Positions 23,421 to 61,055 of a DNA stretch of 64,000 nt are shown here, in pieces. Under the pieces are notes generated by a model. That model ran no database searches, was not told where the DNA came from, and saw only the letters and a list, made by a program, of their open reading frames with translations. Source of the DNA: Polytrichum commune (Eukaryota > Streptophyta > Polytrichopsida > Polytrichales > Polytrichaceae). Positions within the stretch are counted from its first letter, which is position 1. Each line of letters starts with the position of its first letter. Both the position numbers and the translations under genes were made by a program. The stretch spans positions 62,340,533-62,404,532 of the forward strand of contig OX485804.1 in NCBI GenBank assembly GCA_950295325.1. Reading direction: 5' to 3'.

Positions 23421-26400
23421 TTACAACTCATTCTTGATGATTGCAATGAGAGCTTGTGAGCTTTTGATTTGGTCTGCCAAGGCTTGTATCTCTGCTGCAG
23501 TAGCTGAGTCTGTTATCAGGTTCAATTGCTGAGATAACTTTGCACACAGGGCTTCAGACTCTGATACGGATGCCTCAAGTTTTGACAAGGTGCTTTCCTT
23601 CTTGAAAGACCGCCGGAATGCTGGAGTCGATGTGAAGCTGCTCTCACTAAACCGCCTACTCTTTTCCCTGTCTGGAGTGAGAACTCTGTCCAAGCCACCA
23701 CTGCCTGGAGACAGCAGACAACTCAGTCAGGTAAAAGTAAGGTATGTATCCGTGTTCAAAATGACTGAAAGCCAAGGTAAGCTCACCTTAAACGGAAATT
23801 GTAGCTCTACTTCCACTTCTCATTGGATATGAAGCATACGTGCAAGACGATTAGCAAATTATGCCCATAGCCATTTTCATTTTCATTTTCATTTTCATAG
23901 ACGGTTAGACCTTGGTGACTTCATTCCTTCTTTTTGTACCACCACAGTTAGTAAATATTCCTCAACACTTGGAGCACTAGCAACTCTGGATTGTGATCGT
24001 GTGAAGTGCATATCCATAATAGCAAACAGTAAATTTACTGGGTTATAAGGAAGAGCATACCAAATTGACTAAGTTGATCAATAGCGGATTGACCAATTGT
24101 CTTCTGAAGTTGGAGGAGCTTCAGCCCGCCTGCAGCTATACGACTGGCGGATTCAATTTCTGATTTGAACAATTCCACCATGTATTCAACTTCGTGTTTT
24201 GTTGCTTCAACCTCCACCTGTAATCATAATATCCAAATCTTAGTTTGCAAATTGTGTGCACTATGGATACAGCCTTGTGGCTAGTGGACATTGATAAGAA
24301 AACCCAAATTGCCTTAATGACATGATTAACAAATCAGCTCCAGTAGCAGCCAAGAATAAAAGAAACTCTTGACAGTTTAAACACTTACTGGTTCTCTTAC
24401 AGCCGCTTTACAGCTCTTGACTACCCAGCCTCCCATGCCGATGTCATAATCGCCCTCATCGTCTTGCTCCACTAACCGGATCTCAACATCAAAACCACTG
24501 TTGCTAGTCACACTTGGATCCACTGCTGAGAATTTCGCACGTTGCATTGAATCTAGCCTCATACTACTGTTGTTCCTACTTAGTCCTATATCAAAATCTT
24601 CCAGACCTTCAATGTTGGCTGCGCCATTTTGACTTAACATCTCTGCAGCTCCTGTGGCAGTGTAGATAAAATCTGAATCTCCACACTCAAGGTACTCCAT
24701 ACTACTGGTAGTAAGTGAAGCACTAGCCCTAACTTGTGATGTACTGCTGGAAGGCACTTGAGGCTTCAAGGCCTGCAATCCCTCAATTCGCATCTGCGAA
24801 GCCACAAACTCAACTTGAATCAATGAACTTGGCATTTCATATCGTACAATTTTGGGTTTAGTAATAAAGTAGGAAACTACAAAGTCCAAGTGTAGTTAAT
24901 CCAGAAGGACAATAGAGCTAACCTTTAACTCCACAAGACTTTTTCTCCGAAGTCGGTCCCATATATTTTCCATTAGTTGTTTTGCATACAAAATAAATGA
25001 TACCTTTACACTTGTGGTGCATGCTCAGAGGTAGAGTTTGAATTTGAATGAATAGTGCACTATTTAGGTTCATTGAGAGCCAAATTAATGGTAGCAACTC
25101 TTGGCATGCCACAATGAACCGATATAGGGTGTTTCTTCTTTCACAACCCTCCGCACTACCCCAAGCATGCACCAAAAACTTACTGAACCTGGAAGGTGTC
25201 ATATGCCAAACTACCTACTCCCAACCAAAAGTCATGTTGAGTTAAAAAATTACTTCAATGTGGACTGAAATCAAACAAAAAATGAATGCAGTTGTCAGTA
25301 ATCATTAGCAGGTACAGGACGGACACATACGATCAAGCTTTGCACAGGACTTGATTTAGTTCCGTGCTTTGAAATCGCGAGATCCCCTGCTTCCTTGGTA
25401 CCCTTTGCTTTCAAACTCAGACAGCGGAAGGTGGAATGCCAACACCTGTCTTCACGGGACCCGTGCAAGTCCTGCTTTATGGAAACTCCCTCAGGTTCAG
25501 CCACACCGTCTGCTCCCTCAAGGGCAAAAAGCCAGTCCAGCAATTGAATCTCCAACTCAATGTCATCAGGCAAACCAACATCCCAAGAATGCTCATGTGC
25601 CGAGCTACTTCTCTTGTCACCTGAAAAATCCGAATGCTCAGATATACTGAGTTTGTGTTCTTACACTAACACATGAGGACTTTGAATTAAAGTCAAGAAT
25701 AAAATAGAAAAACCATTCAAAAGAAGAAGAAAGAATCATAGAAGACTAATATGAAATTTAGTGCAGACCTGTGAGCCACAAAGAGCAGTGCAATATGGAA
25801 CAAATAGAAAGGTGGGACAGGAGAATGCTGCAATATAAAATTAGACATAATTATTCAACTCACCGGCTTCAGTTAAATTGACAGTGTCATACTAGATTAG
25901 CATGTTTCCGTAATGCTAGGAATATATAGTGCTGAACATTCTTCAAGTATAGAGTAAACCAAGAGTGATTGTTGCAGTACCTGTCCTCCCCACCCCTTTA
26001 ACATCCTTGGAAGGCCTGAACAAATTTGCCAATGAGCCTCTTGACAAACTCTTAATCACCTTCTGGACTTCACGTCCTGGACCTCCATCAGCACCAAAGA
26101 CACCAAATCGATGCAGCAGTGCTTCATTGTAGGCCATTCCCCCACCCAGCCTCACTCCACCCACTTTGGCAACCACACTCAAGCTATGGCATTCAGCATC
26201 CTGCTCTTTAAAAGGTATGACATTCTTCACACTAATGTCCAGAAATGGTAACCTCTCTGCTACCGGCATTCCATCCATGAGACCTCTTCCAGTAGGAGCC
26301 ATGCTGCCCCTCTCTTCTCCAATCCAAAAGACTGCACGCATTTCAGGTAAACCTTGCCTTTGTTCAAACAATTTGTTCCTTCCCAGAAGTGGAGATAGTT

Positions 26401-29400
26401 TCAGTGGGATTGGACGCATCGCTAGACCAGCTAAGGAGCCACTGGAATCCACACCAATTGAGCCTGTATGTGGAACACTTAATGGAGAATCCAAGGGTGA
26501 AGCACAGAATGAATCTCTCACTCCTGAAACATGGGTCAAAGGACTCCCATAGTGCGACTCTACAACTGCAGGTAACATAATTTCTGTCTCCACACACTCT
26601 ACACGAATATCTCGCCAACATAGGTTTGAGGATATCACAGCTGCAGCTGATAAAGTTTGGTGTGTGGCAGTGAAATCAATATCCCAGCTTAAAATCTGCA
26701 CCAAGGGAGGACCTTCTGTAGCAAGTTCACCAGGAACTGATTCTAGGAGTTTCAACTCAAGCATTTCTAAGCTCAGATACACTGCACTGTCACCAGGGAC
26801 AATTTCTGCAAGCTCTTGTAGTGATTCAGCCCTGTTCATACCCTTGAAGGATCCGGTTGACTTCTGGTGCTTAGCAGTCTTCTCTTTTCGTATTACTGGT
26901 TTGCACTCTCGAATAAGCATATCACTCACAATTCCTAGGTATGAATACATCTTCAACACAAACAAGAATTGTTCACTTGATGTGTTGGAGACATATTTCT
27001 TGCATGTGATACCCAATCTAACAACTCCACCTGCAGCAGGCAGAACAATTGTGTGTCATCATAAAAAAAACACATCAATTTCTCTCTATTATAACTTCTT
27101 TGTATATACAGGATTCAATAACAAAAGTTGGCACAACCAACTAGAGACAAGAGATAAAAATGCTGACTTGGGGGCACCAGCTAATACCAGCCACCAGCAT
27201 TAATAAATATACTTTTGACATAGATTACACTTCTGAAATTCTAGTATGAATTTCAGATACCAAATGCAAACCAGAAGAGGCTACAGGTAGACATAGCAAA
27301 CCATGAGCTAATGTCTACAAAGAGTAGCAGCTGAGATATCCCACCTGGTGGAGGTATCACAATCAAAGGGCGTCCATCTTCAGTTGCCATGGCAGCCTCA
27401 AAACATGGTTCATGCATTTCCACACAGCGCCACAATCCAGCAGCCCAATCAGCAGCAGTCGCATTCTGAGAAATATCATCACAGCCTCCAGTTTCAAGAG
27501 CTATGCTCAAATGAGCAGCACGCATTACCCACCTGCTTCATATGAACTACTGATATTACACCCCAGATGGATGGACTGCAACCTGTGTAAAGGCAGTACT
27601 TTGTAACACTGTGATCTGGCCGGTTAAGCTGTCACAGAACATCAAAAATAGACTTGCATATGATGATGCTCTACAATATGATCATGTCTAGCAACTGCAA
27701 ACAACTCAAATTCCCTATTGCACTGGTAAAATTTCACCTCACCCAGATTGGCAAGACCTCGGAAGAGGTATATGTATACACTCTAAGTTAGGGAATGCAC
27801 CTCTGTTGGCTTGAATCCACAGGCTGGCCCTTCCACATTGAGAAGCATGCCGCATCTTTCTCAAGGTTTAGTAGTTTGAAATTTAAGAATGGACTCTGAG
27901 CAATCATGAATCCCTCAACATGAAGTCTAGCTCCTGTGAAACCACTTTCTTCATCATCAGGTTCTTCCAGTAAGGATGTGTTGAGGGGTACAGTGAGGTC
28001 AAACTCCTTGAGGCTGAAATACATGGCATTCAATGATGTGTCTGGAAGAACCACACCAGGCTCCACATTGATCCCATCTGACAGAAAAGAAGCTATTATT
28101 AAGCAGGTCCCCTCCTGAAGATTTATCTGTCAAATACAAGGTGAACATGTCAATACTGACCTTGAAGAAGGCACACAATACCAGAAAGCAACTAACCAAA
28201 CTAACAGATATAGTTGTGTATATCCTGGGTTACAAGCTCAATCAGAATCTTAGACCACTATTGACATTGTAGCAGCTAAGCTATCTCTTGCTTAAAAAAA
28301 TATGCAGACTACTGCCAGAACTAATATGTCACAGCTAATTATAACTTATAACGGGTATGTAAGATTGTATTCTTACTCCAGCCACCTGGTGCTATTACGT
28401 AACAAAGGGGATGAGAAGCTACAGTAAAGAGAACATCACCTAATATATATCAAGGAGATATTTTGTGAGACATATTAACAAGTTTGACTGAGATTCATGC
28501 TTTGAAATCCTTAACTTGCTTGCTCCCTCACAACATGCTTCTCCATCCTATATTCCTACTCATTCCCAAAACCCTTTCACTACCTTCACAGGTTGGCATT
28601 GGACAACGGTTTGTGATGCCAGATTTGGAGGTGCTGGAGCTGGAGAAGTCTGTACAGAGTATACGCATATCATTGGCGTAGCTTCAGTTTGGGGCATCAA
28701 CTCACTCTCAAGAGGATAAATTCTAGGCCACGTCTTGTCACTTGCTGGATCACAAAAACAGGAGCCAAGAATCAGTGATGGAAAAATGAGTATGGTGCTG
28801 GTCAACGCTTGGGATACCAATTTACTTCAATCTTGTAAGACATTATTCTCATTCAGGGATCAGCATCTATGAGCTTGCTATAAAAGCTACCAAGCAAAAG
28901 AAGTGACATATGCAAGCCTGCTTACTGGGGATTAGGAATGCAAACTGTACATGAATTATTTATATAGTGCAGGAAGGTCCACTGTAGGGTTCCTATCAAG
29001 CCTAGAGAACTTCCAACAACATGAGTTATCAATTTGTGATGCCCCTTGGTCAAGGGTACACACCTCATGCTATGCATATCCTTGTAGCAGTGCTTCTAAA
29101 GGTAAGGTAACCCCTGAAATTTTGAGGTTGTATGAAAATGTAACATTTATTATTAGTTCTAATCCAGGTTTCACCAAATTACTAACCAAATGTAGGAATG
29201 GTTGGGGTTGCATTGAATCCTGCATTACGCATGCTTGGTTGAATCAGGGTGCACGGTGGTTGTGAAAATGTATCCCTGCAGTTGAGGCCATCAAATGTAA
29301 CAATCGATAAACAAAACACCATTTTCAATTCAAATAAATATTTTTCTCCCTCAATATGCCCTCGCTATTCTAGTGAATCTCCTTGCAAACTATGCTATCA

Positions 29401-34939: not shown

Positions 34940-37900
34940 TCAAAACCCTAACCCTCACCACCATCAAAATCACGTCACCCCCGGGCTTTCTCGCATTAAC
35001 AAATCTCCACATTCCCTCTCTCCCCACTCCCAACCCTTCAACTACCAATCCCACTCTCTAAAAACATCACGAACACCATCCAAGTACACAAATGATCCGC
35101 TAGACCTCCATCCGAGCTCCAAACCCTAAAGATTCCGATCGATCATGCTCCAATGTGAAGCACCCTCTGGAAGAGTAAGTTTAGATCCCCGGCATTATTA
35201 CGTTTGCGGGGCCATGTGCCGGCCTTGTTGCTGGACATCAGGAGGCATCGAGATTGGTGAATTAAATGGGAGATGGAGATGGCAAAAGTAACTTACATTG
35301 CAATTGCTATTGGAGATGTGAGGTAAGTTATAGAATGATCCGTCGGGGACTGAGTCGTGATGAAGCGGGGAGAGAGAGAGAGAGAGAAGCATCCACAGTG
35401 GAGTTGCTTCCGACGTGCTTGGTCGTGTAAATCGTTTATTAAATCATTCCTTAATACTTTGTTACTTCGTATATTATTATTCCACATAACATCTTTACGT
35501 ACTAAGCACCGGTTCTTTTGTTAACTTATGTGGGACGAGATAATGATCCATGGGTTATCTTTGCGTATTTGTGATATCGAGTTGATTCTACGACTAAGTT
35601 GAGGGTCCACTTACATTATGTAGAAAGTCAATGATACTATAATGTTAGAAAACACCAAACGTATAAGCAATGCATCCACACCTCACTTATGAAGTTGACT
35701 TCCTTATTATGATTAGAATCGAATGACAAGTTTAGTTTGGGTAGGCACATGGTGAGGCTAGTGTAGCTCCTGACACCGGTCACGCTATGCTTTTCATGAA
35801 CATCAAAGTAATTTTAGATTGATGTGGTCACAACTTCAATTTTCATGTTGTTGTTTTTTTCAATTTAGTCCATTCAATGCGGTTGTGACATGTGGCGTCA
35901 CCTGCATCCGGCTTACCATGGAAGTAGGGCCTACCTTAAAGCTTTAGATGATCTAGCTTCATGGTGGAATCTATGTGGCAATTGAACTTGGATTTCGGGG
36001 CCAACCTTGGTTGAATGTTGTCAACCTATGTCTCTCACGCCTACAACCTTTATAAAGCAAGTATTTGTTTTTTTAATGTGACTGGAGATTGCAAGTGGGC
36101 TAAGCTCACTAACCACAGTTTACTACATTATTGCAGCATGTTACCTTCAATTTCAACCTAAATCAAAAGGCATCCTAGAATACGTGTATGTGGCATTTGA
36201 ATTATACCAACGTTCACGGAACTCCACTCCATTGTTGAATAATGTAATGTTAGAGTTGTCATGAAATTTTATGTGGCATATGATGTGTCACTTGATGTTT
36301 AGCAAAGTAATAAAACATTGATTAGTGTTAAGTTATCATTGGTTCTTGTTGTTAAGACTCGAGTTACGAAAGAATATGGTATTCTAAATGTCCAAAAATA
36401 ACCAAGTTAAGTTTATGTTAATTTACCTCTATGTATGGCACACATGAATTTTTGATAACAACTTATAATGTTATAATAGCTATTATGATGCTTATATTGT
36501 AGGATTAGGTGCTATTATTGATAATGATAATGTGCCCTTTTCAATTGGTGTTAAGCCCTTAGCATCATGGATGGCTAACATTTAGGGTGGCTAGACCCTA
36601 AGGTAGACTTGTCTTATTCAAATACCAACCTTATTCTAACACCTAGCATTGGGTGCAACATGGTTTGGTATCTTCTTAGAAGAAAAAACTATATATATAC
36701 ATGTGATGTTATTTATATGTATTGATATGATAGATCATTGGTTGAGATAGCCCAAAAGTCAACGCTCAACATCCGCTCAAACACAAATTGCTTTTTGGTA
36801 CACATGTATGACTTCGTATTTGAAAATTTGTCACAAATTGAAGTTTAGTCACCTTAATTTCATTCTTATGACATTGGATTTGTACAAGATTTGCTAATTC
36901 ATTGGATTTTTTTTACTACATTTATTGCACCTCATAAGAGGCCAAACCTCCTTGAATTACCTATAATAGACTTGTCTACCTTATTGCTCGAATCCAATTC
37001 CTAGCTTACTAAGGATAGTATATACAAAACACTATAGGCTTGCTTTGTATTGTGGATTGAAGTAGAAACATGATGCTAAAAAATAATAATTCTCATAACT
37101 TGCTAATAATATGTAATTTTTTATTGGAAATAGATTATGCCCTCTCCACAAACATTTTAGAAAGCACCACACATTCAAATTATGACCATTACCTGATCCC
37201 ATCTCCCAACTTACTAAGGATCAAAACCTAACATTGTGGGCAATTTTATTTAAACTTTTTGCCCTTGGTTCATGAATTTGCAAACAAAAAATATATAATT
37301 ATAGTTTGGTTATAATATTTGTTTGTAATTTTCAATGGGAAAAGATTATGCCCTCCACTCAAAGTTTCTTAGGGTGAGCCACACGTTCAAACACATTAGC
37401 CTTATTCATAAAACAATGTCGTATGGTCCATAATATAATTTACAAGATTCTTTAATGATATACAAAATCTCTTCTTGATGGAAATTATGTTAATGTTCCC
37501 CAAATTTTTTGAACGTCCACCCATGGATCATGATTTTGGACATTGAAATGCAAAAATTGTGACTTGTTGGAACAAAAAATTCATCATTGCGGTGATCAAG
37601 ATCAAATCGAATCAACATGCTCACTCAACCTTTAATCTCCCAATTGATGAAATGTGTGAACTAACACTCCAAGTCATTGCTTTCTATTGGTTGCCTCCCA
37701 CTCTTTGCCAACCAACAAATGGGCCCTCACTTCTAATATAATCCCTTCATCTTGCCTCCTCCCTTGTGGATGCCATTGAGCCTCTTTATCCCGTCCCTGG
37801 CTTCAGTGACAGGTGGCTGGGGAGCTTCCCTTAGCACTCTTCATGGTCTCTAGATGCTAGATTTGAATTCGATCAATTTCCACATTGTTGTCACACAAAA

Positions 37901-40600
37901 ATCATGTGTATGTTGCTTTACATTTTGTTTGATGTTGTGCAAGAGGAGGCGCTAACAGTGAAGACCCTTGCCTTCCCCTTCTTTCTAACCCATGTGAGCT
38001 TCAAAAATGTTAGACCTCCACAGAAGAGTGTGCATGTGTTTGGGACCGCATGGAGTCCCTAGATGAGGTGGCACTCCTCCTCAACCCTCTTGGCGTCCCT
38101 TGCCACCTCCTCCGTTTCGCGGTTCTAGCCATCAGCCAGTCCTTGCCTTTGTCACCTAAACCATCATCCCTTGACCTTGCAAGGAAATGTTTAGATGGCC
38201 ATCTTGAAAGCCCTTTGGCATGGTTCCCATCATATAAGCAAAGTCGAACATGATTATGTCGATAAGGTTTTTTTACGTGGGAAGCAAATGTTTATGTTGC
38301 ACATAGGAAAAAGTGTACATGAGTGAATTTATGCTCAAGAAATTTCAATAAAGAGTTTTTGCATGATAAAGAGGCTTTTGGTGTAAAATTTATACTCCAT
38401 GTTTGCTTAATCAATTATTTTGATTTGGGGGGGCGGGGTGGGCACTTATTTGAATGGGGTTTGAGTGCCCATCAAAATTAGAACCTCATTTAGGAAAAGA
38501 ACCAAATAGGAGACATAAGTGGACCATTTAAAAAGAAAATTAAAGATGCTTCAAAAGAGGTTTTTATTTGAGACATCTCAAGCTACATATTTTCTTTGGA
38601 AACACTCATGCTGAAAGTTGTAGGCGTTGTTCTAGAGGGTGCATATTGAACAATTTCTTTGTGAACAAGTCTGCAATTGTCAAGTTACTTTTGCAAAGGA
38701 CCAACATGATGTGTAATTTTGTTGTTACACAGATGCCAAGGATACATACACGCAGTATGATAATTTTTTTTTATGTACGCACATATATATGTACGTACAT
38801 ATATATTTGTGATACATATAACTAAGAAATCAATTGGGCTATTGGCTCATATCACATCAATGGTTTTGTTTTGTTCTCTTAGCTGAGAGATTGCTTCGAA
38901 AATCCAAATTTTGTGTACATAGGTTATGGTAGGGTATAATATTCACCTACCTTTATAGTGTCACTTTTGCACTTGCAACCTCAACATATGTTCACATGTT
39001 TCCTGCATTGTATTGTTTCTAGTAATACTACATGGACTTGTGCTTACTGCCAATTGCAGGATTCTTTTATTAGTTATTTGTCAAGAAAAAATCATATAAA
39101 GTAGTATGATCAAGAGAGCTTCTCACCTTGCAAAAATTGTCAAAGTTCCACTAATATTCCCAATTAGTGCTTGTAGTTCTCTTTCCCAAAGTATACACTA
39201 TTTTGTCAAGTCTCTACATTAGTGAGGGTTACATTTTGCAAAACAGACTCTATTTTGTCAAATTTCAACATTAGTGAGGGTTCCAACTTGCACAGAATGA
39301 TACTAAATTGATGAATACAAGCTTGTCTATCATACTGTGGATGTAAAGTTGTGCACACTCTAGGGTATCTGTAAATCGGTATTGTATGCAAACATATGCC
39401 GATTAATGAAAAGTGGTAAGATGAATATAACGCAGGGGCATTATGTATAGTAGTTTGAGTGAACACTTGTTCCATTGATAGTATTTAAAATGAAATTGTG
39501 CATTCATGAACAATGTTGGCTAGATATTTAAGTGACAGTCTATCACACAGCATAAGGGATTGTACTATCTGCTTCACTAATTTGCCTTGCACACTATCTG
39601 TCCACTTTCACTAATTTGGAGAATGAATGCGTGCAATATGGTACAGTCTTAAGTGATGAATACATACCATTCGTATGTTTCAAGTTCAAGTGTATGAATA
39701 GTATGTTGATTTTTTGGAAGCCAAGGCAGATGTCAAGATTCCATCTACTCGATGTCTGTTTTAGAAGTCACCTTATTCACGTTCACAAGTAATTGATGCG
39801 AATTTATTATGTGTCTGAATGCAGAAATCCTTCATCACAAGTGCTTGCTTTTGAACTGGTTGGTAACTGAGGAATGGCAATCGAAGCAAATTTCTCTCAA
39901 TTGAGGCAAGTGATTAACCATATCGTAATTGTGCACTTTGCAGAAATTTTCTGAAGCTGTAACTCATTAAATAATATATTTTTATTCTATTTTATTCTAT
40001 TTTTCCAATGAGTAATGTTGCTGAGAAGACAGAAAACAACATGTTTGCTCTATATCGTTACTGCCAAAAAATTCCAGACGTATTTATTTCTTCTTTTCAC
40101 TGTCACTAGTGGCAGATTTATTATTGCGATTATAACGATTCTTTTAAACCTACAAAATAGTGATTATTTAACCACATTTGCAAATTTCATCAACTACATG
40201 TCAAAAGTTGGTAACACATTTCTCTCAAATTAAGAATGGAAGTGCGTTCGGAAAATTAAGTTAAGCATCACTGCAAAACCGCTTTCCTATCCCCATTTCA
40301 TCCTTTAAACATTATATGCAGTTTAGGCTCAGACGACCACATCCAGATATGTATATACTACCTATGTAACACGCACAATCATGTATTCCTAGACAGAGAA
40401 ATGTAATTTTGTACTCACCAGCAAAGGTCTTGTGAACTACAAGAGCTGTACATGATGTACCGATAAGTAATTCACAAGACATTTGCTGATGATCACTAAG
40501 ATACAGACAAACCATGCACAAAACACGACACGTTCGACAGACTCCATTTTCCTTTACCGTGCGCGGTTGAGTATTGGGTCGCCGAAGTACATTGTCTCCT
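34940..40600. other. Long intergenic region
   Basis: The first about 300 bp (C-rich, with ACCCTAACC and CTCTCTCC words) are probably the promoter and leader of the minus-strand lipid-transfer gene, followed by a (GA)n run near 35370-35386. The rest is AT-rich without a supported gene. A local direct repeat of about 200-bp spacing (GATTATGCCCTC at about 37135 and 37345) and a two-copy repeat at 39190-39280 (TATTTTGTCAAR...TTAGTGAGGGTT) are visible. The ORF at 38050-38253 is Pro/Leu-rich and unrecognised. A slightly GC-richer island spans 37740-38250. Confidence 0.45.
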
Positions 40601-40625
40601 GCACCTGCACATGAACAGGACAATG

Positions 40626-40708
40626 GGCACACTCCCTTCGCAGGCATTATCCTGATCAGGTTTTAAGGGTGTCTCTCAGCCTGCTCGAAAGCAAGCACCC
40701 CTGGCGCC
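40626..40708 (-). promoter_or_regulatory. TPP riboswitch (THI-box aptamer) in the THI4 3' region
   Basis: All THI-box landmarks occur in order on the minus strand: P1 GGCGC (5' arm, 40708) pairing with GTGCC (3' arm, ending 40626); GGGGTGC opening P2; a P3 hairpin CTTGCT-TTCG-AGCAGG; the invariant CTGAGA (40679-40674); ACACCC closing P2; ACCTGATC (40661-40654); GGATAATGCC (40652-40643), the pyrophosphate-sensing part; and GCGAAGGGA closing P4. These are the established TPP aptamer motifs. The aptamer lies 242-324 nt past the THI4 stop on the same strand. In plant THIC the same aptamer controls 3' UTR splicing and poly(A) choice; by inference it does so here for THI4. Confidence 0.95.
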
Positions 40709-40920
40709 AGTATATTAGCAACATGGAAACCTTTTCATTGCAAACTTTGTAAAAAAGTACATATGTGGTGTTGTAATCCTCTTCTTCCCACAAGAAAGAG
40801 ATCTTCTTTGACTGCACAAAAGCTGGACAGTGGTATCCGCCCCCCACCCTACACTACGACGATCACACATTGACAGTACAACCTCCTTCCTTCTCACTTC
40901 TACATTTTTTTTCAAATTGT

Positions 40921-40928
40921 ACTTACAC
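40921..40928 (-). promoter_or_regulatory. Candidate 3' UTR 5' splice site paired with the riboswitch
   Basis: Minus-strand GAGGTGTAAGTA, about 22 nt after the THI4 stop, contains a consensus donor GTAAGT (with a GTGTAAG alternative). Possible acceptors are CGCCAG/GGG inside aptamer P1 (intron end at 40701) and TGTGCAG/GTGCAG just past the aptamer (about 40605 or 40599). AGGT at the donor can pair with ACCT of the aptamer P4 strand. This mirrors the THIC arrangement, but splicing is inferred. Confidence 0.45.
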
Positions 40929-40949
40929 CTCGGCGTGAACTGGGAGTGT

Positions 40950-43680
<2,731 letters not shown>

Positions 43681-46387
43681 GAAGATTCTTTAGTGGATGC
43701 ATGAAAGCTAGCAACCCGTATCCATGGCCCTTCATATTCTAGCGGACCACCAGAATATGGTTGGATGGAGGACTGTGCTCAAAGTACATGCGAACACCTC
43801 CGACCCGATATTTATCTAGTGGGCGAGTGGCCTACATGAAAACTCATCCTTACTGGTGTGGGTGACCGGCAAATGGCTGCTACTAGCAAGGGCCACTTTT
43901 AAATTCAGTTTGGCTAATGATGGCCATTGGATGTAACCAACGCTGGTAATAATTGTTCACTAATGGTCCGCATCAATAAGTGTGGATGGGTTCTTAGTAA
44001 GTGTGGAGTGAAGTAGAGGACCATACTAAAGATCATTCCCCATACGTGGCCAACCTGAGTTAAGTTACTACTACTGGAGGTCATTCGGTGGACATGGCTA
44101 ACCCCGAGTTAAGGTAAATATGCCAAATTAATGTAAACCACCCCTTAGGTTGTGGATGACATCAACGCTTGAGGAACATCTCTTTCTTTGAATTTCTTCG
44201 AATTTGTGGGCTAATGTATACAGGTCAAAAGTATACCGATATCATTAAAAGTGTGATATACCATTTGAAGTTACACACTGCTATAAAAGGAAAATGTCAT
44301 TGTTTACCCAAATAATATAAATCACTAGTAAGCACATCACGGACACATTTGTATAATTTTCTTGGTAAACACTTATATTCTCAATAAAAAGTTATAGCAA
44401 CATGTGTTTCCAACAGTAAACCACAATAATAGGTGATATGGGTGTAGCGGACGATGATGACCTGATCTCTTGATTTTTCACCTTACCAACGTTTTGAGTT
44501 AAGTCATTAAGGCTTTCATACCTACAATGCGCCGTTCTTTATTTGATAATTCAAAATAATTGTGCAAACAATATTCTATTCTAACATGTGTGTGTGTATA
44601 TATATATAGATGAATTATCTCAAATTGGTTTTTGCTTAGATAAAATATCTTTTGGTTTAATTTTCTTATGTTGCGATCATAGATCATGATTTTGGTCTTA
44701 GTTCAATTAACATCAAGACTAGAGAACGTGAAATTTTTATTTAGCTTTGTAAACATACTTCTGATTTAGAGAGCATATCCACATTGTAAGTGTGGTGAAC
44801 TTCTTTAGTTTTCCTTAGTTTCAACAGGAAGTAAATGTGAGTATGACTATAGTAAGTACGTATAAATGGGACTATTGATTGAGATATCAAAAAGTAGGAA
44901 TGGAAAGGCTATGGCCTAATTCTAGGAGACAAGGTAGGGAGACTAGGTGGGTAAACCACGAGAAAGAGGATTGAGAGGGGATGATCATGGGAATTATTAT
45001 GAGTATTATTTTTTTGGAGAGTCTGACTCCATCAGCTCCGTGAGAAAGTTCAGTGTTTGATTAATCCTTTTGAGTCTTGAACATCAACTCTGTGTGAGAG
45101 TTGTGGTATTGAGAGAGGAGAGATTCCTTTGGTGTGAGACCATAGTATGTATTTTGAAATATTTACATATTCGATCCAGGGTGTTTGCACTGGATCATGA
45201 GACTAAATTATCTCAAGACCATTGACTGTACTGTGATTTAGTTTGCTTGGCCAGTGAATGAATGAAACACTTTCAAAAAAAGTTAAAAGTATTGTGTGAG
45301 AACTTACTGACTCAAATGTATCTCAAGCCATAGTCTGAGCAAATTTGAAATTAATTTGTGAATTGAAAGTGATTGTGAATGCGCATCATGACCATAGTCT
45401 GTTTATGCAATAATGTGTGTGAGATGCCTTATTTTATTTGGGAGTAAAAACAAAAGGATGAGAGGAGACTTAGACATGATCATTTCTTGTGAAACTAAAT
45501 GGTGAAACTGTTTGATTATTGTGCAGTTGTGGGAAGAATGAATGACAGTAAATCAAGGTTATTGTTTGAGTCATAAGTGAATGCTAATTGAAGTGAATCC
45601 ACATTTTAGATATTGATTAGAGCCTTGCAAAAAATGTTGCGATTGAGTGGTGATGGTGTTGCCTCGTAGAAAGAATTGAATTACTACAGAAGAGAGATTC
45701 CTCGTGTGATTGTATAGGTCGATTGACTTAGTATATTTATTTGGTTGATAAGAGAACCAAAGAGCATAATTCTATTGTCTGTTACCTGTGAAGGGTAAGA
45801 TTGGATGATCTGTATCCATATATATTTTTGAGCATTTACGTAAGAATCTGAATGATAAGTGAAATAATTTCATGGGTGAACGTTGAGGCAATTGATTGAT
45901 GTATACCATAATTACTTGAGTGATGCTTAGATAATGATATTCACCTCAGGGTGAATTAATTGGATATAAATGAATTGTTGTAATCAGTCTGGAGAGGGAA
46001 GAACATGAATAATTTTCACAGCAAGAGGCTCGAAACGAGTGTACGTCGAGGCTATGGTCTGCAATGTATTGTTGGAGTAGGCTATACTCGCCTAACCTTT
46101 AATAGAAACCAAACAGACAGAGTAAGAAGATTTTATTTTATTTTTAGACAGAAGGCCGACATGCCAACGTCAATGCACAGGAGGCAGTTGACCACCTGGC
46201 AAGATTTCCGTCAAGCAGAGCCCAACATTTTTCCTTTAAATTGCACCCATACCCAGACCATGCCCATCAACAGCAACCTATGCCCACCCATGCCCACACA
46301 TAGCATGACATGTGCCCACCCATGCCCCACCCATGCTATTCAAATTGCGCCCATGTATTAAAAATTTGTGTAATGTGCATTACCCGC
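43681..46387. other. Gene-free AT-rich stretch
   Basis: No supported gene. It includes a (TG)n(TA)n run near 44585-44607. ORF 46005-46361 (+) covers a low-complexity CCCACCCATGCCC stretch (about 46260-46345) and is not credible as a gene. A possible old LTR-like tract around 45000-45300 has no recognisable ends. Confidence 0.4.
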
Positions 46388-50559: not shown

Positions 50560-50930
50560 CAACACCCTAACCCAACAACCAATTGCCTACACTAAATGCC
50601 AAACCAACACAAGCAATGAATCACCCTAAGTCTAATTCAACCACCTACACTAAATCCAAACAAGCAACATCACACATAAACCAACACAAACAATGAATTA
50701 CCCTAAGTCTAATCCAGCCACCTACACTAAGCCCAAACCAACAACATCACACATAAACCAACACAAGCCATGAATCATCCTATGTCTAATCCAACCACCT
50801 GCACTAAGCCCAAACCAACAACATCACACATAAACCAACACAAGCCATGAATCACCCTATTTCTAATCCAACCACATACACTAAGCCCAAACCAACAACA
50901 TCACACTTAAACCAACACAAACAATGATGC
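50560..50930. repeat. 77-bp minisatellite, about five copies
   Basis: The unit includes AAACCAACAACATCACACAT, AAACCAACACAAGCCATGAA and TCTAATCCAACCACCTACAC. Copies become cleaner to the right and end near 50930. The strand is strongly depleted in G. Confidence 0.8.

Positions 50931-53614: not shown

Positions 53615-53675
<61 letters not shown>
53615..53675. repeat. (GA)n microsatellite
   Basis: A perfect GA dinucleotide run of about 30 repeats. It ends directly at AGTTATTGCATATGAGTATA, which resembles the outer end of family C MITEs. Confidence 0.95.
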
Positions 53676-58545: not shown

Positions 58546-60170
58546 GTCCTATCTCTCCATCAATGTGGTTGTCAAACATAGCATTGTTAAGCCTACTCCC
58601 TCTACACCCATTCCTAAAGGAAATGAGGGGTAGGCCCAACAACACTTGATTCTAGGCTGCAATTTCCTTTCATAATTAGTTGGCATTGTCATACACTTGC
58701 TCGGCATATTTTGCCTTGCATGTGGGGCCTTGGCATTGTTGTGCCAACCTCAATTCCAAAAATTTGTTGATGAATTATATTCAATGCCAATAAGCCAAGC
58801 CCATGTGATGGCTAGCTACCATTTAAGTGAAGTACCGTAGCTCTCTAGCAACTTGGGCATAAAATAATTAATTTCAAACCTGCATAGATTTTCGGGAAAT
58901 TAATTTCGTTGAGTGTCCACGAAAAAAAAAGGAAAAAAAGAAAAAAAAAATTCATTCAAAGAGTGTCTAAAATCACAATAATGCAAGTGCCATTTACTAG
59001 AATCCAACGAAGTGACATCAAATCAAAGCAATATTTGCTACCAAGCAAAACCTTGACATACAAGTAAAAGACAAACCTTAGGGTAAGGAATGTCGGTGAA
59101 GGGAAGTGTTTAGGTTAATCGAAGCTGCCATAGATGAAATTAGGAAACCATCCATGAAATATAGAAATGCGTGGATGAATGTTTAACTTATTTTTAAATT
59201 ACTTTTTGAACTTGCCCAATTTTAGAAATTTGTATGGGTTCCCTAACTTATGGCCCTTCCCACATGACTTTAGCTAAGACTAAAAGGTGGTTCTAACAAC
59301 CCGGCCTTCACACCGTCGACATTATCTAGTGCCGAGCCTAGTTGGCAAATGATCTGGCATGGCTTGAAAGTGCAGGTTTTAAGCCTCAAGCACCGACCCT
59401 CCCATGCCATCGGTACCGAAACATGAGGCAAGAATACATGACCTTTACAAGTGTCGCCTCCCGCCCTTGTGATTGGTTGCTTTTTAAACTTAGCTATGAG
59501 GGCACGAGGAGCTCCATTAACAAAAACCGATGGTTAGATAGGTGAGTAGTAAGGCATTTGGGGATGGGACAAAAACTACCCAACATGTCATTGCTTGGTA
59601 AATAAAACAATGAACATGTGTGAAAGCTACTTAACTAAAACCTACTTGAAAATCTTTGGAGCAAGTTCTTGTAGGTGCATTGAGATAACCGGATGCCTCC
59701 GCTATAACCGAGGGAGCTTTACCCGGTTTTTAGGAAATACTTTTAGTCTTAGCTAAAGTCAGGTGGAAATGGGGCATAATCATTTTTGCATCATAATCAA
59801 TTATTAGACAGAAAGGTGTCCAAGCTGCTACAGAACTACGGTAGAATGAATTGCGTTTTTTTTTTGTGAAGATGGCCCAACATAAAAGGGGTATTGTGCT
59901 CCCAAACTCCTGGCCCCACAGCGCAACAGCCTACTGCTGAGTCAGTGAGGAATACAGTAGCCGTAACGATGGAGATAGGAAGTGTTTTTCCAACTCCGTG
60001 TGCACCACAAACACAGGTGTCCAAAGCCTGGACTCCAACAGTGCAAAGAGCGAAAGATCCTCTGCCACACAGCTTGTCCTTAGTGTGTGTGGCTCGTACA
60101 TCACTCATCGAAGGCCTAATCTTAATACTTGTGAAGAGCAGAATGAATGGCAGGGCTCCTGAAAACGTCC
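58546..60170. other. Gene-free stretch, one unexplained ORF
   Basis: No recognised gene. A 141-codon minus-strand frame at 59836-60261 (Cys- and Val-rich, with GAHGVGKTLPISIVTATVF) overlaps the first unit of the tandem array and a plus-strand frame; I cannot assign it. An (A)n/(AAAAG)n tract lies near 58921-58950. Confidence 0.35.
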
Positions 60171-61055
60171 TGTCAAACACACATTCATGAATGACACTGT
60201 GTGCAAAAATCTCTGTGTTCAACCAACATACCCTTGTTGAAGAACGTTCGAGAGTGTTCACGGAGGGATGCGAATCAATCCAAGATTCTTCTTAATTGGA
60301 AGCGTGTTTGTTTGGTTCCATAAAGACTCCCTTTCCTTGAAAAGTTCATGTCAAAAACATATACACAAATGACATTGTGTACAAAAATATATGTGCTCGA
60401 CCAACATGCACTTGTTGAAGAACGTTCGAGAGTGTTCAGGGAGGGATGCGAATCAATCCAAGATTCTTCTTAATTGGAACTGTGTTTGTTTGGTTTCATA
60501 AAGACTCCCTTTCCCTGAAAAGTTCATGTCAAAAACACATACATGAATGACATTGTGTTCAAAAATCTTTGTGCTCGACCAACATGCTCTTGTTGAAGGA
60601 CGTTCGAGAGTGTTCAGGGAGGGATGCGAACCAATCCGAGATTCTTCTTAATTGGAAGTGTGTTTGTTTGGTTCCATAAAGACTCCCTTTCCTTGAAAAG
60701 GTTATGTCAAAAACACATACATGAATGACACTGTGTCCAAAAATCTTTGTGCTCGACCAACATACCCTTGTTGAAGAACGTTCGAGAGTGTTTAGGGATG
60801 CGAATCAATCCGAGATTCTTCTTAATTGGAAGTGTGTTTGTTTGGTTCCATAATGATTTCCTTTCCCTGAAAAGTTCATATCAAAAACACATACATGAAT
60901 GACACTGTACAAAACTCTATGTGCTCGACCAACATACAATTGTTGAAGAACATTCGAGAGTGTTCAGGGAGGGATGCGAATCAATTCGAGATTCTTCTTA
61001 ATATGAAGTGTGTTTGTTTGATTCCACAAAGACTCCCTTTTCCGAGTTCATGGAG
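60171..61055. repeat. 178-bp tandem array, five copies
   Basis: Units start near 60171, 60350, 60528, 60706 and 60880 with GTCAAAAACACATACATGAA and carry AACGTTCGAGAGTGTT, GGGATGCGAATCAATCC and TTGTTTGGTTCCATAAAGAC. Period 174-179 bp. Unit length is in the range of plant satellites, but five copies make it a local array. Confidence 0.9.

Follow-up and report, generated by a model that had tools for sequence, protein, structure and literature searches.

A TPP aptamer downstream of the thiazole synthase gene THI4 in the moss Polytrichum commune

Introduction

Is thiazole synthesis in a moss under the direct control of a TPP riboswitch, and by which mechanism might such a switch act? The question is raised by a 64 kb stretch of DNA from Polytrichum commune (the window; G000:C2:62340533-62404532 of a 408 Mb assembly of 64 contigs), for which a preliminary description had claimed that THI4 is followed by a complete TPP aptamer, leaving it open how widely a THI4-linked version is documented in land plants. 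The novelty that this implied is mostly gone, as according to passages in PMC4260697, PMC5853225 and PMC10226581 (Plant Cell 2023) THI1/THI4 riboswitches have already been reported in non-angiosperm plants and were lost in angiosperms and some gymnosperms. The sources cited for this are Bocobza 2007 and Wachter 2010, which are known here through the citing papers. A passage in PMC7390266 likewise describes earlier plants with the riboswitch in both genes, and the corresponding parts of PMC5853225 and PMC10226581 state that flowering plants have kept it on the pyrimidine branch (THIC) only. The statements cited from these four papers on the THI1 riboswitch of plants name the gene and not the position within THI1, and in the relevant parts of PMC6414600, PMC9544697 and PMC8331165 THIC alone is named for plants. 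The literature that was covered contained no study that tests the function of a THI4 riboswitch in a moss, which says little because subscription papers are mostly outside that coverage.

Identity of the aptamer and of its gene

The preliminary description had suggested the Rfam TPP model as a check, and a cmscan of the 64 kb window returned an RF00059 (TPP) match at 40712-40615 (-) with 68.2 bits and an E-value of 2.8e-11, compared with a cut-off (gathering score) of 54.3 bits, that covers the full model length (1-105 of 105). It is the sole match in the window above any Rfam gathering score, and a permissive Rfam scan of 36000-46000 gave the same aptamer again, together with four weak microRNA-family matches below cut-off. 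In Rfam's own alignment one P1 pair is non-standard, but if P1 is taken to begin at G40708-C40626, further out by one pair, all 22 of the tested pairs of P1-P5 are standard. The identification as a complete TPP aptamer, on the THI4 strand and downstream of this gene, is thus supported, and the preliminary description was right in placing it at exactly 40626-40708, with the conserved elements on this strand. Between the stop codon and the aptamer there are 241 nt. That the similarity arose by chance, or that this is a pseudo-aptamer which is misplaced and has no relation to THI4, has practically no probability left: a chance match is ruled out by the E-value, by the five helices and by the gene context with its fitting gene and strand, and the lack of any other match above a gathering score in the window speaks against it as well.

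A 111-aa ORF at 40312-40647 (-) overlaps the aptamer and was rejected as a separate small gene, as nothing supports this mechanical ORF. Past the aptamer, at a distance of about 120 nt, a strong hairpin with a long, near-perfect stem is predicted at 40395-40515 (-) with -45.8 kcal/mol; it gave a weak microRNA-family match below cut-off, and it may represent a small inverted-repeat element or else a structure of the 3' end.

The THI4 gene itself is intact and consists of two exons, the joined product of which differs at 2 of its 359 residues from the database protein P0002 (sources jgi and lgn), which is encoded on a 1,245-base contig. It is this close database counterpart that matches PF01946 (Thi4) with an E-value of 2e-112 and the solved chain PDB 1rp0 with 1.3e-161. 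Among the best 120 of 2,823 matches of the window protein, the best named full-query relative is from Ceratodon purpureus (85% identity over 100% of the length), and Sphagnum balticum and Riccia fluitans follow with 90% over 86% and 90% over 85%, respectively. The PF01946 match and the close plant matches identify the gene, as judged from its sequence, as a Thi4/THI1 thiazole synthase gene, and from its position the aptamer would be part of the 3' UTR (Table 1).

Table 1. Coordinates of the THI4 gene, the aptamer and the candidate processing sites in the window
Feature	Position	Strand	Basis or remark
THI4 (THI1) coding exon 1	41358..42278	-	ATG 42278; joined CDS 359 aa
THI4 coding intron, 249 nt, GT..AG	41109..41357	-	among the listed GT..AG pairs, the one yielding 359 aa with 2 differences from P0002
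THI4 coding exon 2	40950..41108	-	stop TGA 40952-40950
Putative 3' UTR, stop to aptamer, 241 nt	40709..40949	-	position
Candidate donor GTAAGT for regulated splicing (or else GTGTAA from 40928)	40921..40926	-	sequence; 23 nt after stop
Donor stretch GUAAGUAC, may pair 8/8 (two G-U) with GUGCUUGC at 40698-40691	40919..40926	-	duplex computation
Weak poly(A)-signal-like AATGTA, within candidate intron	40901..40906	-	sequence
Rival 3' splice site AG upstream of aptamer	40812..40813	-	11/16 pyrimidines
Weak poly(A)-like AATGAA, within candidate intron	40739-40734	-	sequence
Candidate branch site CTAAT, just 5' of aptamer	40714..40718	-	motif
TPP aptamer, P1 to P1	40626..40708 (Rfam model span 40615-40712)	-	RF00059 68.2 bits; 22/22 pairs
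Candidate 3' splice site CAG/GGG inside aptamer	40701..40702	-	would cut first 8 nt of aptamer
Rival acceptor AG, just past the aptamer	40605..40606	-	11/16 pyrimidines
Two AATAAA hexamers, from 40122 and 40088	40083..40122	-	about 0.5 kb beyond aptamer

The window also contains repeats. Upstream of THI4 (42601-43679), a repeat of ~341 bp is present in about three direct copies that have diverged, and the intervals 50601-50927, 60158-61040 and 53615-53675 hold units of 77 bp and 178 bp in tandem arrays as well as a (GA)30 run. Two other long frames, at 25943-27055 (-) and 24377-24895 (-), extend over 370 and 172 aa from stop to stop; neither of them, nor any of the 10 frames scanned out of the 48 listed, has a Pfam match at E 0.01.

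THI4, THIC and a second aptamer in the genome

In the 408 Mb assembly there are two exon matches to P0002, and as both of them fall at the window gene, one THI4 locus was found. The assembly contains two RF00059 aptamers, the window copy and a second one at C2:22718774-22718872, which is a lower bound because just 49 of the 10,682 first-look candidates were scored. The second aptamer (positions 1501-1599 of locus L004; 67.7 bits) is found downstream of THIC, as two open frames of locus L005 match PF01964 with E-values of 4.4e-99 and 7.4e-13, and it starts about 610 nt past the THIC stop. An alignment of both aptamers shows identity in 70 of 84 columns, and they may therefore have arisen by duplication, or a strong similarity between them may have been maintained.

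A single match to an over-strict pattern of the aptamer core was found at G000:C1:41671054-41671081 (-), and as the reversed control pattern matched twice, it is probably due to chance; the same pattern missed the aptamer of the window. The search for P0002-like proteins found no THI4 loci in viral contigs, and among genome contigs it found THI4-like proteins in two Candidatus Peregrinibacteria records (L001 and L002), which were left out of the comparison. In the best segments of these proteins the identity to P0002 is 67% and 65%, which strikes us as close for bacteria.

Candidate splice and 3'-end sites

Downstream of the THI4 stop codon there are a candidate donor (GUAAGU), a branch-like CUAAU and, within the aptamer, an AG, which together allow splicing of the THIC type. 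Donor 40926 and acceptor 40701 would delimit a candidate intron of 226 nt. By simple scores, neither the candidate donor nor the candidate acceptor is unique. GTAAGT occurs in 1.1% of the 40-nt stretches on the THI4 strand of the window, and the donor agrees with the consensus at 6 of 9 positions, in which it is tied with 7 other GT sites in 40949-40500. A CTRAY motif lies 12-32 nt upstream at 13 of the 270 CAGG sites on both window strands, and acceptor 40701 is preceded by pyrimidines at 8 of 16 positions, versus 11 of 16 for each of the rival acceptors 40812 and 40605. Acceptor 40812 might belong to a short and ordinary intron of the 3' UTR, though the 12-55 nt upstream of it show no branch-like motif.

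AATAAA is absent between the THI4 stop codon and the aptamer, and two weak poly(A)-signal-like hexamers fall within the candidate intron. The pair of AATAAA hexamers beyond the aptamer is a possible end of a long 3' UTR.

Pairing of the candidate donor with the aptamer

In THIC of Arabidopsis, the pairing partner of the donor is P4/P5. The best donor pairing at THI4 differs from this, as it involves P2/P3, the 5' strand of which contains the GUGCUUGC stretch that is complementary to the donor stretch GUAAGUAC. The 10-mer duplex of donor and aptamer has a computed energy of -9.3 kcal/mol. Of 1000 dinucleotide-shuffled aptamers 16 did as well, and so did 43 of 2000 83-mers taken at random from the window, which makes the statistics modest. 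The 18-mer duplex reaches -18.1 kcal/mol (equalled by 37 of 1000 shuffled 18-mers and 24 of 1000 shuffled aptamers). As masks of the region 40940-40915, other parts of the aptamer were rejected, as P4/P5 gave -9.0, the 3' strand of P4/P1 -11.0 and the 3' strand of P3-P2 -7.7 kcal/mol, versus -18.1 kcal/mol for the 5' half of P2/P3. Of 398 12-mers that cover exon 2, the 3' UTR and the aptamer edge (some of which overlap that edge), the donor ranks 82nd in pairing with the aptamer, and it comes 4th among the 24 GT sites from stop to aptamer, three others being slightly better against the whole aptamer. For 40955-40942, which lies beside the donor, the pairing with this 5' strand of P2/P3 is computed at -16.4 kcal/mol.

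Partition functions do not support donor masking. When the aptamer was forced, the openness of GTAAGT increased in two of four constructs and decreased in the other two, at a cost of 12.2-17.0 kcal/mol in a model that does not include ligand and tertiary energy, and in the free ensemble the pairing probability of GTAAGT with the aptamer was 0.00-0.12 in the four constructs. Donor masking by P2/P3 is regarded as a lead and not a result. It is rather doubtful that the expression platform is unlike that of angiosperm THIC, with GUAAGUAC being masked by the 5' strand of P2/P3 (GUGCUUGC) and not by P4/P5, but if it were so, the TPP-stabilised formation of P2/P3 would by itself free the splice site.

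How the aptamer may regulate THI4

It is very likely that the aptamer is contained in the THI4 mRNA, binds TPP and regulates the gene. With its TPP riboswitch downstream of the only THI4 found, the moss would exert an end-product feedback on thiazole synthesis, beside the riboswitch of THIC. As the THI4 enzyme is described as single turnover in passages of PMC5853225 and PMC9544697, a feedback on THI4 makes economic sense. As to the mechanism, a TPP-dependent choice of splicing and 3' end as in plant THIC is somewhat favoured. In this mechanism, at low TPP an aptamer strand would cover a donor in the 3' UTR, perhaps that at 40926, so that the intron would be retained and a processing site within it would give rise to a short and stable mRNA. 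Once folded at high TPP, the aptamer would free the donor for splicing to 40701 or to 40605, and the loss of the processing site by splicing would result in a longer and less stable mRNA. In favour of a regulating aptamer are the RF00059 score, the intact P1-P5, the intact THI4 on the same strand, which is the one locus found, the second aptamer downstream of THIC and the THI1 riboswitches already reported for non-angiosperm plants. The mechanism is favoured by the candidate intron, which resembles that of THIC-III, and by the duplex of donor and aptamer. It has to be weighed against the ensemble folding, the low rank of the donor among the 12-mers, the donor tie, the weaker acceptor 40701, the lack of an AATAAA from stop to aptamer, and the THIC aptamer, which in the alignment of both aptamers has no AG at the place that matches 40701.

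Alternatively, the aptamer could lie wholly inside a 3' UTR intron that ends at acceptor 40605 and has its branch point (CUGAU) in the aptamer, and TPP would in this case block splicing. The better pyrimidine stretch of 40605 compared with 40701 agrees with such an arrangement, and in THIC of this moss, too, the aptamer is closely followed by a U-rich acceptor (L004:1620, 12/16 pyrimidines). In both cases a branch-like motif is found within the aptamer, namely CTGAT in THI4 and TTAAT in THIC, at 52 and 54 nt, respectively, upstream of these two acceptors, but these motifs come from the conserved aptamer itself and thus possibly mean nothing. Moreover, the best THIC acceptor is upstream of the THIC aptamer (L004:1471, 13/16 pyrimidines), acceptor 40701 has a closer branch-like site, and the sign of regulation would be opposite to that of the THIC model as it is outlined in PMC10226581. 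An intron-internal aptamer is therefore regarded as unlikely.

It is even less probable that the aptamer may bind TPP but no longer regulates, either as a relic in the 3' UTR or because it lies beyond all poly(A) sites of THI4. Ensemble folding showed no clear switch, and a part of PMC9544697 reports that the predicted aptamers of diatoms confer no thiamine regulation, which speaks for a relic and equally against a regulation of THI4 by TPP. Evidence against a relic, on the other hand, comes from the 22 of 22 tested helix pairs that are intact and from a score that is near that of the THIC aptamer.

Comparison with known TPP riboswitches

The THI4 aptamer is a clean new example of an arrangement that has already been reported, and the kind of switch is not new; as papers trace switches of this sort to a report from 2007, the discovery is a modest one. 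A bryophyte with intact aptamers downstream of both THIC and the only THI4 found is nevertheless a useful system to learn what disappeared together with the second switch. With the THI1/THI4 riboswitch of non-angiosperm plants (Bocobza 2007; Wachter 2010) it shares the aptamer class, the gene and the occurrence in land plants; the comparison is made by way of the citing papers and covers these three points, and no difference emerged from it.

The THIC riboswitch in the 3' UTR of angiosperms is similar in that the aptamer follows the stop codon; the donor that precedes the aptamer and the AG at its 5' edge are candidate sites in the case of THI4. According to the sections of PMC5853225 and PMC10226581 that describe the THIC model, at low TPP the aptamer covers the 3' UTR donor, the intron is retained, and the internal processing site leads to a short, well-expressed mRNA, whereas at high TPP the donor is freed and splicing removes the processing site, which results in a long, unstable mRNA. 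The spliced form THIC-III of Arabidopsis, as described in a passage of PMC5853225, lacks 7 nt of the 5' end of the aptamer, and the THI4 aptamer would lose 8 nt if 40701 is used. The angiosperm switch differs in that it acts on pyrimidine synthesis, whereas the THI4 switch described here would control thiazole synthesis.

The THI4 riboswitch of Chlamydomonas has the same gene and ligand class, but it is located upstream, in the 5' UTR, and acts via a uORF, as stated in a part of PMC12371167, whereas the aptamer of the moss is downstream of the coding sequence. The fungal riboswitches of the thiA and NMT1 type are alike in that a TPP aptamer controls the splicing of thiamin genes, which may also be the case for THI4 here, but they reside in 5' UTR introns, as mentioned in PMC10226581, and differ thereby from the moss aptamer with its position downstream of the THI4 coding sequence.
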